This document shows, piece by piece, positions 14,805 through 20,242 of a stretch of DNA of 51,373 nucleotides. This stretch comes from Schumannella soli (lineage in GTDB: Bacteria > Actinomycetota > Actinomycetes > Actinomycetales > Microbacteriaceae): NCBI RefSeq assembly GCF_006517435.1, contig NZ_VHQG01000001.1, positions 247,983 to 299,355 of the forward strand, given 5' to 3'. The position numbers and the translations under genes are program-made. The notes beneath the pieces were generated by a model that saw only the letters and a list, made by a program, of their open reading frames with translations, was not told the DNA's origin and made no database searches. Positions within the stretch are counted from its first letter, which is position 1. Each line of letters opens with the position of its first letter.

Positions 14805-16202
14805 GTGCCCGAGTGGCTCGGCCTGATCCTCGGCACCCTGCTCACCGTCGGAACCGGCGTCTTCGTCGCGAGCGAGTTCGCCCTGGTGAACCTCGACCGC
14901 CACGAGCTCGAGGGCCGGCGCGACCGCGGTGAGAAGCGTCTCGCGCCGGTGATCGGCGCCCTGCGCATCACCTCGACCCACCTCTCGGGCGCCCAGCTCG
15001 GCATCACGCTGACGACCCTGCTGGCCGGCTTCACCTTCGAGCCCGCGATCAGCAGCCTGCTGCGCGGTCCGCTCACTGGACTCGGCATCCCGGATGCGGT
15101 GGTGCCCGGCGTGGGCGCGGTCGTCGCGATCGTGCTGGCGACGCTGTTCTCGATGATCCTCGGCGAGCTCGTGCCGAAGAACTTCGCGCTCGCGCTCCCC
15201 CGCCAGACGGCGAAGGTCGTCGTGCCGCTGCAGGTCGTGTTCACGACCGTGTTCCGGCCGGTGATCGCGCTGTGCAACGGCACCGCGAACGCGATCATCC
15301 GCCGCATGGGGATCGAGCCCCAGGAGGAGCTGTCGGGGGCGCGCACGGCCGAGGAGCTCGGCTTCCTCGTGCGGCGGTCCGCCGTCGAGGGCACCCTCGA
15401 CCCCGACCACGCGACTCTGCTCGACCGCACCCTGCGCTTCGCCCAGCACGACGTCGCCGACGCGCTGACCCCGCGGGTGCGGATGGTGACGGTCGCCGCC
15501 GCCGACTCGGCCGACGCCGTGATCGCCGCCTCGCTCGCCTCCGGCCACTCGCGGTTCCCGGTGACGGGCGCCGACCGCGACGACATCGTCGGGCTCGTGC
15601 ACGTGAAGCAGGCGTTCCGCCTCGACCCGGCCGACCGCGCCGGCGTGACCGCGGGCGAGCTCGCGACGCAGGCGCTGATCGTGCCCGAGACGGCCGCCGT
15701 CGACGGCGTGCTGCAGACCCTGCGCCGCTCGGGCGGGCAGCTCGCGATCGTGCTCGACGAGCACGGCGGCACCGCCGGACTCGTGACGCTCGAAGACCTC
15801 ATCGAAGAGCTGGTAGGCGAGCTGCGCGACGAGCACGATCGCATCCGCCAGGCCGTCGTGCGCGACGGTGCGGCCTGGATGCTCGACGCGGGCCTGCGCC
15901 CCGACGAGCTGCGTCAGCTCACCACGACGGGCAGCGGCGCCGCCGCGGTCGTTCCCGAGGGCGACGACTACGACACGGTCGGCGGGTTGGTGCTCGACCG
16001 GCTGGAGCGGGTGCCCGAGGTCGGCGACACGGTCGAGCTCGAGCACGGCACCCTCACGGTGGCGCGGATGGACGGGGTACGCGTCACGCGCCTGCGCTGG
16101 ACGCCCGGGGCCGAGAGCACCGACGCCGAGCGACCGGAGGCCGCATCCGCCGACGCGGATGCCCGCGACCGACAGGAGGTGAGCGCTCATGGCGAGCAGT
16201 GA
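14805..16202 (+). CDS. CorC/HlyC-family membrane protein with DUF21 (CNNM) and CBS domains
   Basis: This is a probable Mg2+ (or Co2+) exporter of the CorC/MpfA/CNNM group, older name hemolysin family. The 465-residue protein has four hydrophobic segments in the first 170 residues, with the DUF21 signatures SEFALVNLDR near 24 and ILGELVPKNFAL near 120. Two CBS motifs span about 215-345 (ending DEHGGTAGLVTLEDLIEELVGEL). A CorC_HlyC C-terminal domain spans about 350-440 (YDTVGGLVLDRLERVPEVGD). The GTG start has GGAGGTGA upstream. It overlaps the next gene by 14 nt, so the two DUF21 proteins are probably co-translated and may form a heteromer. Mg2+ efflux is known for family members but only inferred here. 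Confidence 0.9.
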   Translation: MPEWLGLILGTLLTVGTGVFVASEFALVNLDRHELEGRRDRGEKRLAPVIGALRITSTHLSGAQLGITLTTLLAGFTFEPAISSLLRGPLTGLGIPDAVVPGVGAVVAIVLATLFSMILGELVPKNFALALPRQTAKVVVPLQVVFTTVFRPVIALCNGTANAIIRRMGIEPQEELSGARTAEELGFLVRRSAVEGTLDPDHATLLDRTLRFAQHDVADALTPRVRMVTVAAADSADAVIAASLASGHSRFPVTGADRDDIVGLVHVKQAFRLDPADRAGVTAGELATQALIVPETAAVDGVLQTLRRSGGQLAIVLDEHGGTAGLVTLEDLIEELVGELRDEHDRIRQAVVRDGAAWMLDAGLRPDELRQLTTTGSGAAAVVPEGDDYDTVGGLVLDRLERVPEVGDTVELEHGTLTVARMDGVRVTRLRWTPGAESTDAERPEAASADADARDRQEVSAHGEQ

Positions 16203-17262
16203 CATCGCCGGCCTGATCTGGCTGTTCGTGCTGCTGATCGTGAACGGTTTCTTCGTCGGCGCCGAGTTCGCCGTCATCTCGGTGAAGCGCTCCCAGATCG
16301 AGCCGCGTGCCGCCGCCGGCAGCCGGGCCGCGAAGACGACGCTATGGGCGATGGAGCACGCGACGCTCATGCTGGCGACGAGCCAGCTGGGCATCACGGT
16401 CTGCTCGCTCGTGATCCTCAACGTCAGCGAGCCGGCCATCAAGCACCTGCTCGAGGTGCCGCTCGGCGCGACCGCGCTCAGCGGCGACGCGATCGCGGTG
16501 ATCGCCTTCGTGGTCGCGCTGCTCGCGGTCACCTTCCTGCACGTCGTGTTCGGCGAGATGATCCCCAAGAACCTCGCGTTCTCGGTTCCGGATCGCGTCG
16601 CGCTGCTGCTCGCGCCGCCGCTCGTGCTCGTCGCGCGCATCCTGCTTCCCGTCATCGGGTCGCTGAACTGGCTCGCGAACGGCATCCTGCGGCTGTTCAA
16701 GGTGCAGCCGAAGGACGAGGCGACGAGCGCGTTCACGCTCGACGAGGTCGCCGGCATCGTCGCGGTGTCGACCCGCGAGGGCGTGCTCGACGACCGCTCG
16801 GGCGCACTGCAGGCGGCGTTCGAGTTCACCGACAAGCGGGTGCGCGACATCGAGGTGCCGACCGATCGGATGCGCACGCTGGCTCGCGACGCGACGCCCG
16901 CCGACGTGCGGGCCGCGGTGGCGGAGACCGGCTGGTCGCGCTTCGTGCTGACCGACACGGATGCGTCAGGTACCGCCGAGCCCGTCGCCGCCGAGCCCAT
17001 CGCGTACTTGCACCTCAAGGACGTGCTCGACCTGACGGGCGCCGCGGATGCGGAGCCGGTTCCGGGGAAGCGGATGCGCCGCCTCGTCACGCTCTCGCGC
17101 GACGCCGAGCTCGAGGACGCCCTCGACCGGATGCGCCGCGACGGCGTGCACGTCGCGCGCACGGCCGACGCCCAGGGGCGCATCCACGGCGCGGTGTTCC
17201 TCGAGGACATCCTCGAGGAGCTCGTCGGCGAGATCGACGACAGTGCGCACGCGGTGGCCTGA
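16189..17262 (+). CDS. Second CorC/HlyC-family DUF21-CBS membrane protein
   Basis: A 357-residue paralogue of the preceding gene. It has DUF21 signatures (GAEFAVISVKRSQIEPRAAAGS near residue 22, VFGEMIPKNLAFS near 120) and three or four membrane segments. The paired CBS region spans about 205-350 and ends with DAQGRIHGAVFLEDILEELVGEI. Unlike its partner it lacks the C-terminal CorC_HlyC domain. This asymmetric tandem pair is common in actinobacteria. The 14-nt overlap with the upstream gene suggests coupling. Transcription probably stops at the strong hairpin 17263-17295 directly after the stop codon. Confidence 0.9.
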   Translation: MASSDIAGLIWLFVLLIVNGFFVGAEFAVISVKRSQIEPRAAAGSRAAKTTLWAMEHATLMLATSQLGITVCSLVILNVSEPAIKHLLEVPLGATALSGDAIAVIAFVVALLAVTFLHVVFGEMIPKNLAFSVPDRVALLLAPPLVLVARILLPVIGSLNWLANGILRLFKVQPKDEATSAFTLDEVAGIVAVSTREGVLDDRSGALQAAFEFTDKRVRDIEVPTDRMRTLARDATPADVRAAVAETGWSRFVLTDTDASGTAEPVAAEPIAYLHLKDVLDLTGAADAEPVPGKRMRRLVTLSRDAELEDALDRMRRDGVHVARTADAQGRIHGAVFLEDILEELVGEIDDSAHAVA

Positions 17263-18835: not shown

Positions 18836-18963
18836 CCCTGAGGCCGCGCCCTGATTGACGGTGCGCCCGGGCCGCCGAAGAGGCGTATCCTTGCCGAGGC
18901 CCGCGCCCGGCGCGGCGCCACGAGACCCGCAGGACGAACCGCGAGAGGCAGGTGACGCGCACG

Positions 18964-19026
18964 ATGATCGGCGATCATGATCCGCAGAAGCGCCGTCGCT
19001 CCTGCCTCGGCGCTTCTGCGTCCTGA
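18964..19026 (+). CDS. Possible leader peptide of corA
   Basis: The frame encodes MIGDHDPQKRRRSCLGASAS and stops with TGA. An in-frame GTG at 18952 would add four residues. AGGTG lies 9 nt before the ATG. The terminator-like hairpin (18983-19020) lies inside the frame, and the stop codon comes 3 nt after it. A ribosome reading to the end would therefore prevent the hairpin from forming. Arg-Arg-Arg near the middle could be a pausing site. There is no homology support, so this is a structural inference. A leader peptide (CorL) is known for Salmonella corA. Confidence 0.4.
   Translation: MIGDHDPQKRRRSCLGASAS
18983..19020 (+). terminator. Terminator-like hairpin (attenuator candidate) in the corA leader
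   Basis: CGCAGAAGCGCCG and its exact complement form a 13-bp stem with a 12-nt loop containing CCTGCCT. The downstream sequence TCCTGATCTTCCTCCC is pyrimidine-rich but is not a true U-tract. Confidence 0.6.
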
Positions 19027-19132
19027 TCTTCCTCCCTCGTCCCGGCACGAGGCGGGTGGATGCCCGCGTCCGCGGCTGAATCAGCTCGCGCCCGCGCATC
19101 CCCTCGCCTGACTCCGGGTCTGCGCACGCCTG

Positions 19133-19152
19133 CCTCCTGACACCTCAGGAGG
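19133..19152 (+). promoter_or_regulatory. Hairpin sequestering the corA Shine-Dalgarno sequence
   Basis: CCTCCTGA (19133-19140) pairs perfectly with TCAGGAGG (19145-19152) around the loop CACC. The 3' arm is the corA ribosome-binding site, 4 nt before ATG 19157, so the folded state should block initiation. Confidence 0.65.
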
Positions 19153-19156
19153 AGTG

Positions 19157-20242
19157 ATGACTCTCATCGACACCGGCATCTACCGCGACGGCGCACGCCT
19201 GGCCGCCCCTCCCGAGGCCCGCCTCACCTCCGAGACGCTCGAGGGCACGCACGACCTCGCCTGGATCGGCCTGCTGCGCCCCACCGCCGCCCAGCTGGCC
19301 GAGCTGGCCGAGGAGTTCGACCTGCACCCGCTCGCCGTCGAAGACGCGCAGAAGGGCCACCAGCGCGCCAAGCTCGAGCGCTACGACCACACGCTGTTCC
19401 TCGTGCTGCGGCCCGCGTGGCTGGCGGCGGCGCCGGCCGCGGCCTCCGCCGACGGCGTCACCGTCGAGTCGGGCGAGATCCACGTCTTCGCCGGTCCGCA
19501 CTTCGTGATCACCGTGCGGCACGCCGACCGCCCCTCGCTCGCCGGCGTGCGCGCACGGCTCGAGGCGAACCCGCAGGCGCTCTGCGGCGGCTCGGAGGCC
19601 GTGCTCGCAGCGATCCTCGACGAGGTCGTCGACGGCTACGCACCCGTCGTGCACGGCCTGCAGGAGGGCGTGGATGCGCTCGAGGACGAGCTGCTGCTGG
19701 GCAAGGCCGACCCCGCCGCATCCCAGCGCATCTACCACCTGCTCTCGCAGGTGATCGACTTCCAGCGGGCGATCGGACCGCTGCCCGACATGCTGCACGG
19801 GCTGCTGCGCGGCTCGAGCAAGTACGGTGCCGACGATGAGGTGCAGAACCAGGTGCGCAACGTGCTCGACCACGCGCTGCGCATCACCGAGCGCGCGGAT
19901 GCCTTCCGCGCACTGCTCGAGAGCCTGCTCACCCTGCACTCGACCCTGGTCACGCAGGAGCAGAACGAGGGGATGCGGCGCATGACCCGCGCGAGCCTCG
20001 CGCAGGGCGAGGAGAGCCGGCGGCTCGCGCAGATCCAGCTCGAGCAGGGCGAGCAGACGAAGAAGATCACCTCGTGGGCGGCGATCCTGTTCGCGCCGAC
20101 GCTCATCGCCGGCGTCTACGGCATGAACTTCGACGCGATGCCCGAGCTGCACTGGGCGTGGGGCTACCCCTTCGCGATCGCGCTCATGCTGGGGCTCGGC
20201 GCGGGGCTGTGGTTCGTGTTCAAGCGCAAGCGCTGGCTCTGA
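19157..20242 (+). CDS. corA: CorA family magnesium/cobalt transporter
   Basis: It forms a homopentameric channel that imports Mg2+ (also Co2+ or Ni2+) across the cytoplasmic membrane. The 361-residue protein has the typical long N-terminal cytoplasmic domain (LHPLAVEDAQKGHQRAKLERYDHTLFLVLRP). Two C-terminal membrane helices follow, with the signature YGMNFDAMPELHW at the end of the first. The C-terminus FKRKRWL is basic, as usual. The reading also contains a GTG one codon earlier, but ATG 19157 has the better distance to AGGAGG. The gene is monocistronic, and the hairpin 20278-20309 follows. Together with the two DUF21 genes it suggests Mg2+ homeostasis as the local theme. Confidence 0.95.
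   Translation: MTLIDTGIYRDGARLAAPPEARLTSETLEGTHDLAWIGLLRPTAAQLAELAEEFDLHPLAVEDAQKGHQRAKLERYDHTLFLVLRPAWLAAAPAAASADGVTVESGEIHVFAGPHFVITVRHADRPSLAGVRARLEANPQALCGGSEAVLAAILDEVVDGYAPVVHGLQEGVDALEDELLLGKADPAASQRIYHLLSQVIDFQRAIGPLPDMLHGLLRGSSKYGADDEVQNQVRNVLDHALRITERADAFRALLESLLTLHSTLVTQEQNEGMRRMTRASLAQGEESRRLAQIQLEQGEQTKKITSWAAILFAPTLIAGVYGMNFDAMPELHWAWGYPFAIALMLGLGAGLWFVFKRKRWL

Follow-up and report, generated by a model that had tools for sequence, protein, structure and literature searches.

The window analyzed here, 51,373 nt of the Schumannella soli genome, carries a gene of the CorA channel family that is preceded by a short open reading frame (ORF) and by two predicted RNA helices, which we refer to as P1 and P2. 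The elements of the locus are as follows.

18886 to 18891, + strand: predicted -10 box TATCCT, recognized from its sequence; transcript start placed near 18897-18898
18945 to 18963, + strand: leader Shine-Dalgarno (SD) sequence and spacer, GAGGCAGGTGA..., forming the 5′ strand of P1; SD-like stretch in leader-bearing loci, P1 swap test
18964 to 19026, + strand: leader ORF of 20 codons, MIGDHDPQKRRRSCLGASAS; M-x-G-D-H/S start and a length of 18 to 22 codons in relatives
18983 to 19020, + strand: genus-specific hairpin of 13 bp within the leader ORF; z = -7.5, identical in the nearest relative, G001
19118 to 19139, + strand: 3′ strand of P1, partner of 18942-18965 (leader SD to start codon); duplex of about -31 kcal/mol, swap test
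19133 to 19152, + strand: P2, hairpin over the corA SD; 8 perfect pairs, arm-swap test
19154, + strand: alternative GTG start of corA
19157 to 20242, + strand: corA, CorA family channel; Pfam CorA 2.9e-59, TIGR00383 192 bits

In a profile search, the corA product matched Pfam CorA with 201 bits (E = 2.9e-59), and its translation contains YGMN, which includes the GMN motif of CorA transporters. Against the NCBI equivalog TIGR00383, the product reached 192 bits, 8.7 bits under the cut-off of 200.75. We consider corA to be probably the gene for a magnesium channel. Two overlapping CNNM/CBS (CorC-like) genes (14805 to 16202 and 16189 to 17262, + strand) lie 1.9 to 4.4 kb upstream; by tblastn, such genes were near corA at only 1 of 80 corA loci (L037, which is without the leader). 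At Rfam gathering scores, the whole window yielded SRP RNA and tRNA only. The corA leader gave chance-level matches and no family, which agrees with the first-pass annotation that it is not an M-box, and the covariance models of the other Mg2+ riboswitch families in Rfam did not match it.

The leader frame runs from ATG at 18964 to TGA at 19024-19026 and has 20 codons, or 24 when counted from a GTG at 18952. The first-pass annotation had described this frame together with the 13-bp hairpin, the hairpin over the corA SD, and a repeated octamer with its complement, and all of them lie where it placed them. Its leader frame is also conserved before corA: a frame of the M-x-G-D-H/S type was found upstream of 56 of 194 CorA homologues, where a leader was defined as a frame that matches M-x-[G/S/A]-D-[H/S/R], exactly or nearly, and is accompanied by an SD-like stretch. 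The 194 homologues comprise 80 loci and 114 from further genomes, with some genomes in both sets; L076 contributes no upstream sequence, L180 and L192 contribute only a short stretch, and L086, L089, and L090 were excluded from the set. One false match (L060) was removed before counting, and a Curtobacterium leader that has lost its stop (L014, MSGGH) was added by hand. The 56 regions, 50 of them distinct, belong to part of the Microbacteriaceae, namely, Curtobacterium, Leifsonia, Plantibacter, Glaciihabitans, Microbacterium, and further genomes of this family. Among the 49 leaders that retain a stop, 48 have 18 to 22 codons, and L009 has 26. The GTG at 18952 and the ATG share one frame in the window, G001, G297, and the Microbacterium group-C leaders. 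This GTG is out of frame in Curtobacterium, G167, and the MAGDS-type leaders, and we therefore rejected it as the leader start and took the ATG with M-x-G-D to be the shared one.

In a tree of 100 distinct CorA rows, all 42 leader rows fell within one clade of 52 rows, whose support is weak (83/74) and in which 10 rows lack a recognized leader. At least 8 gains or losses are needed to explain the leader label on this tree, compared with an average of 32 for shuffled labels. The tree omits L027 (leader-bearing), L055, L076, L086, L089, and L090, as well as 80 regions without a protein, three of which bear the leader. A motif search that was blind to corA gave 55 matches in 398 genomes of the family, 22 of them directly before corA by coordinates, and a reversed control pattern gave 4 matches. 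We rejected the idea that the leader also precedes other genes after examining 19 of the 33 non-corA matches, in which the frame was shorter than 30 codons in one case (L162). At the order level, a stricter leader pattern, which the window itself fails, matched 3 of 297 genomes; two of the matches are Microbacteriaceae corA leaders, and the third (G612) is a 5-codon frame in a locus with no corA. A second CorA, with 50 to 51% identity, is present in the window genome and in G001 (L087 and L088), and a scan for short upstream frames found no leader of the M-x-G-D type before this paralogue. Our search of the open-licence full-text literature returned no account of this Microbacteriaceae corA leader.

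Only the beginning of the leader ORF is constrained. Within each of four groups (4 to 8 distinct sequences each), codons 1 to 5 are invariant, and from codon 6 to the end pN/pS is 1.4 to 3.3; in these groups, which do not include L009 and L014, we found no amino acid constraint after codon 5. The use of dN/dS as proof that the leader is coding thus failed, because constraint is absent beyond that codon. The leaders listed share no common run of regulatory codons of the sort that marks an amino-acid-sensing leader peptide. The SD, the start codon, and codons 3 to 5 (G-D-H/S, GGUGAYMRU) are constrained, mostly even at wobble positions. Between groups, codon 2 varies, and among the 50 distinct leaders, which include many close relatives, 43 have GGT as codon 3 and 49 have CAT or AGT as codon 5. 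These codons are scarce in the corA genes of six of the loci (GGT, 13 of 145 Gly codons; CAT, 10 of 60 His codons; AGT, 1 of 86 Ser codons) although they are favored in the leader, and it therefore seems that nucleotides, and not merely amino acids, are kept at codons 3 to 5. The SD is the complement of the 16S rRNA 3′ end, and GGUGAU of the leader resembles it. At 18964-18978 and its homologues, codons 3 and 5 retain T as the wobble base in genomes of high GC content; this is perhaps a second SD-like pause site. Comparison of the window genome with G001 showed 0 changes in the 82 nt of leader SD plus ORF, 0 in the 41 nt before corA, and 6 in the intervening 89 nt, with substitutions and indels further 5′.

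The leader SD can pair with RNA close to corA. The octamer CCTGCCTC occurs at 19001-19008, in the loop of the 13-bp hairpin, and again at 19129-19136, and its complement GAGGCAGG lies at 18945-18952. The match with the corA-proximal copy is the core of a longer helix, P1 (18942-18965 with 19118-19139, about -31 kcal/mol). The first-pass annotation proposed that GAGGCAGG pairs with either copy. Both pairings do exist, since in an unrestricted search the lowest energy for the leader SD of the window came from pairing with the ORF-internal copy (-35.0 kcal/mol, equaled or bettered by 21 of 200 shuffles), but only the corA-proximal copy showed a fit between clades. GC-rich RNA pairs easily, and in a single-sequence free search over 10 of 200 shuffles reached at least as low an energy for 31 of the 50 leaders; we therefore used a between-clade swap test for P1. 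With 11 representatives, which were chosen after a comparison of the ranks of own P1 partners, own partners gave -28.6 kcal/mol compared with -22.6 kcal/mol for partners from other clades (z = -5.1; 0 of 20,000 permutations). The result was also 0 of 20,000 with 13, 18, and 23 representatives, L103 being absent from the sets of 11 and 13 and included in those of 18 and 23. Controls that used the middle segment, the ORF, other codons, or the corA SD region gave z values of -1.7 to +2.1. When the partner window was slid along the leader, the peak lay at -32/-26 from corA (z = -5), with minor signals at -20 (z = -2.4) and -80 (z = -1.9). The ORF-loop copy of the octamer was rejected as a conserved element, as the leader SD showed no between-clade fit to the ORF (z = -1.4).

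The fit of P1 is not uniform. Of 24 representatives, 14 had their own partner within the first four ranks, and the fit was poor in L103, L093 (G167), L114, and 3 of 5 Microbacterium group-C representatives (L030, L244, and L035). In Curtobacterium, P1 lies at equivalent places and is formed by partly different bases. L014, the Curtobacterium leader without a stop codon, has also lost Asp4 and retains P1. The covariation of pairings that the first-pass annotation had named as a check is seen for P1 and more weakly for P2, but counts of two-sided changes were uninformative: changes counted from free duplexes fell in 23 columns compared with 21.9 in derangements and gave no discrimination.

P2 (19133-19140 with 19145-19152) has 8 perfect pairs and covers the corA SD AGGAGG, just as the first-pass annotation had it. 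Its 5′ arm overlaps the 3′ strand of P1, and the bases common to both in the window are 19133-19139. The P2 region is modestly stable (z = -2.1; 11 of 200 shuffles as low), and an arm-swap test gave z values of -3.8, -2.8, and -1.8 at three cut points (4, 80, and 877 of 20,000 permutations, respectively). On visual inspection, about 14 of 23 representatives show the hairpin clearly, with differing sequences, and its energy is only slightly below that of leaderless upstream regions (-13.5, n = 23, compared with -11.7, n = 140; one-sided p = 0.04). The whole leader (18897-19175) is predicted to fold strongly (z = -5.5; 0 of 200 shuffles as low). When the leader start was held unpaired to mimic a bound ribosome, the predicted accessibility of the corA SD went down in 22 of 33 leaders and up in 6, compared with 9 down and 8 up when a control block was held unpaired; the corA SD of each leader came from an automatic choice, which is questionable in some of the 33. 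For the window, accessibility changed from 0.15 to 0.00. The predicted effect of the switch in the window is nevertheless modest, because in the free fold P1 coexists with a 6-bp P2.

The hairpin inside the leader ORF has 13 perfect pairs (18983-18995 with 19008-19020), a 12-nt loop, and a predicted energy of -31 kcal/mol, and none of 200 shuffles was as low (z = -7.5). Among the leaders listed, it was seen in the window genome and G001 only. The first-pass annotation had likened it to a terminator; as a conserved terminator it does not hold up, being confined to two genomes of this genus, with no T run and no terminator-like site in a scan, and it may merely structure the leader ORF. The same annotation had GCCGAGGC (18893-18900) pair with GCCTCGGC (19004-19011) and thereby disrupt this hairpin. 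We rejected that pairing because the -10-like box TATCCT puts the transcript start near 18897, so that the pairing would begin 5′ of the transcript. A sigma-70 scan found no promoter-like site at this predicted -10 box, and a loose pattern of TAnnnT, 3 to 6 nt, and purines-G lies 5′ of the leader in 18 of the 50 distinct leader regions, a count made without a chance control. The 22-mer at 18887-18908, which is present in many genomes of the family, was set aside as a chance match: the seven matches examined share one stretch, taken as coding, which we presume resembles ilvD.

The locus has a conserved short ORF 5′ of a transporter gene, as is expected of a Mg2+ transporter leader controlled by an upstream ORF (uORF). 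Folds that may be alternatives and would link the uORF to the corA ribosome-binding site are predicted, with P1 strong, P2 weaker, and bases common to both, yet P1 and a shortened P2 coexist in the free fold of the window. We give even chances to the reading that the leader is a uORF-controlled RNA switch in which leader translation represses corA and failed early translation induces it. A ribosome initiating on the leader would keep P1 open, so that P2 closes and corA translation is low. Were leader initiation or early elongation to fail, most plausibly at low intracellular Mg2+, P1 would form, close the leader, take bases from P2, and open the corA SD. What is read would be the act of translating the first codons and not the sequence of the peptide, because the peptide is free to drift after codon 5. 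That Mg2+, or any ion, is the signal is suggested solely by the identity of the corA gene. A narrower proposal, which we hold to be rather unlikely, is that GGUGAYMRU, directly after the start codon, causes ribosomes to pause or drop off depending on their state (e.g., at low Mg2+) and so gates the competition of two ribosome-binding sites on one mRNA, making an actinobacterial, ribosome-made ion sensor independent of corL and mgtL. If the switch were confirmed, uORF control of a probable Mg2+ channel would have arisen separately in Actinobacteria, and sensing of Mg2+ by the ribosome would be a recurrent solution rather than a peculiarity of enterobacteria. The leader lends itself unusually well to testing, as conservation is limited to the SD, a few codons, and a pair of short helices, and the clades supply natural compensatory variants.

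The least certain step of this switch is its sign (P1 as the ON state), because the opposite assignment holds for the corL fold in E. coli and mgtQ translation promotes mgtB. In E. coli, corL translation is inverse to corA expression, and the fold sequestering the corL SD (stem A) is assigned to the OFF state (PMC11552253), whereas we read P1 as ON. The leader, as predicted, otherwise resembles the corL-corA leader of Salmonella and E. coli in having a short ORF before corA, an SD that can be sequestered in a stem, and two alternative folds, and the conserved N-terminal part of corL cited there is a further likeness (PMC11552253). It differs in belonging to another phylum and matching no Rfam family, in starting with AUG in the window where E. 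coli corL is given a UUG start (PMC11552253), and in placing P1 right at the corA SD hairpin, which suggests translational rather than Rho control. As is proposed for the present leader, mgtQ of Salmonella mgtCBRU is a short ORF that chooses between a fold freeing the transporter ribosome-binding site and a hairpin hiding it, and it too has an Asp near the N terminus (PMC8092293). Unlike the present leader, which has about 20 codons, usually with Asp4, and is the first gene of its transcript, mgtQ has 8 codons, with Asp2 and Glu5, and lies inside an operon. Its translation, inefficient through the acidic codons, promotes mgtB; the abstract has uORF translation promoting mgtB, and the Discussion credits its inefficiency (PMC8092293). 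The mgtL-mgtA leader governs a Mg2+ importer from a leader ORF via alternative RNA folds, as would the present leader, but with multiple proline and acidic codons (PMC11552253), a run without a conserved counterpart here. The gamma-proteobacterial corA motif is, like this leader, structured RNA directly before corA; it is reported from gamma-proteobacteria only (PMC6429828), and no Rfam family matches here.

The folds could instead act on transcription, with leader translation deciding whether Rho, or another factor, ends the transcript in the region that separates the leader stop from corA. Regulation of corA in E. coli and Salmonella is partly Rho dependent (PMC11552253), and this region is richer in C than in G, both in the window (0.41/0.30) and in 11 of 12 leaders measured. 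The difference is small in several leaders (Microbacterium T32, 0.33/0.31; L099, 0.35/0.32), Leifsonia shows none (0.32/0.32), and P1 and P2 center on two ribosome-binding sites, which indicates translational control; we consider the Rho version unlikely. We find it scarcely credible that the leader is a classical attenuator in which the 13-bp hairpin serves as the intrinsic terminator: the very stable hairpin (-31 kcal/mol, z = -7.5) does end 3 nt before the leader stop codon, but no T run follows it, the scan found no terminator-like site, the hairpin was not seen beyond two genomes of this genus among the leaders listed, no run of regulatory codons is common to the leaders, and codons 6 to the end are unconstrained.

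The RNA might also sense an ion directly as a riboswitch, the ORF being a passenger or a mere shield for the RNA, and in favor of this are the high degree of structure in the leader and the proposal of gamma-proteobacterial corA leaders as riboswitch candidates (PMC6429828). An ion-binding core would, however, need a common sequence block, and beyond the SD region and first codons we saw none common to all clades; with the ORF length kept while its sequence drifts and no Rfam family matching, we judge a riboswitch very unlikely. As for the nature of the signal, CorA family members carry several metals, the TIGR00383 score is just below its cut-off, and no codon run indicates an amino acid, so the leader may control corA in response to a different divalent ion, to translation stress, or to growth rate. 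Such a signal other than Mg2+ seems to us somewhat improbable, given that the enterobacterial analogue responds to Mg2+ (PMC11552253) and that the window has the two CNNM/CBS genes upstream, though such genes are near corA at just 1 of 80 loci.

In Microbacterium group C (L030, L031, L034, L040, L244, and L248), the leader SD prefers the leader's own codons as a partner, for the most part not beyond shuffles. In most of these leaders, GGCGGCGTC, which lies further downstream, is a potential partner of those codons, a pairing noted without a chance control. Group C thus seems to have the same leader with its pairings wired differently.
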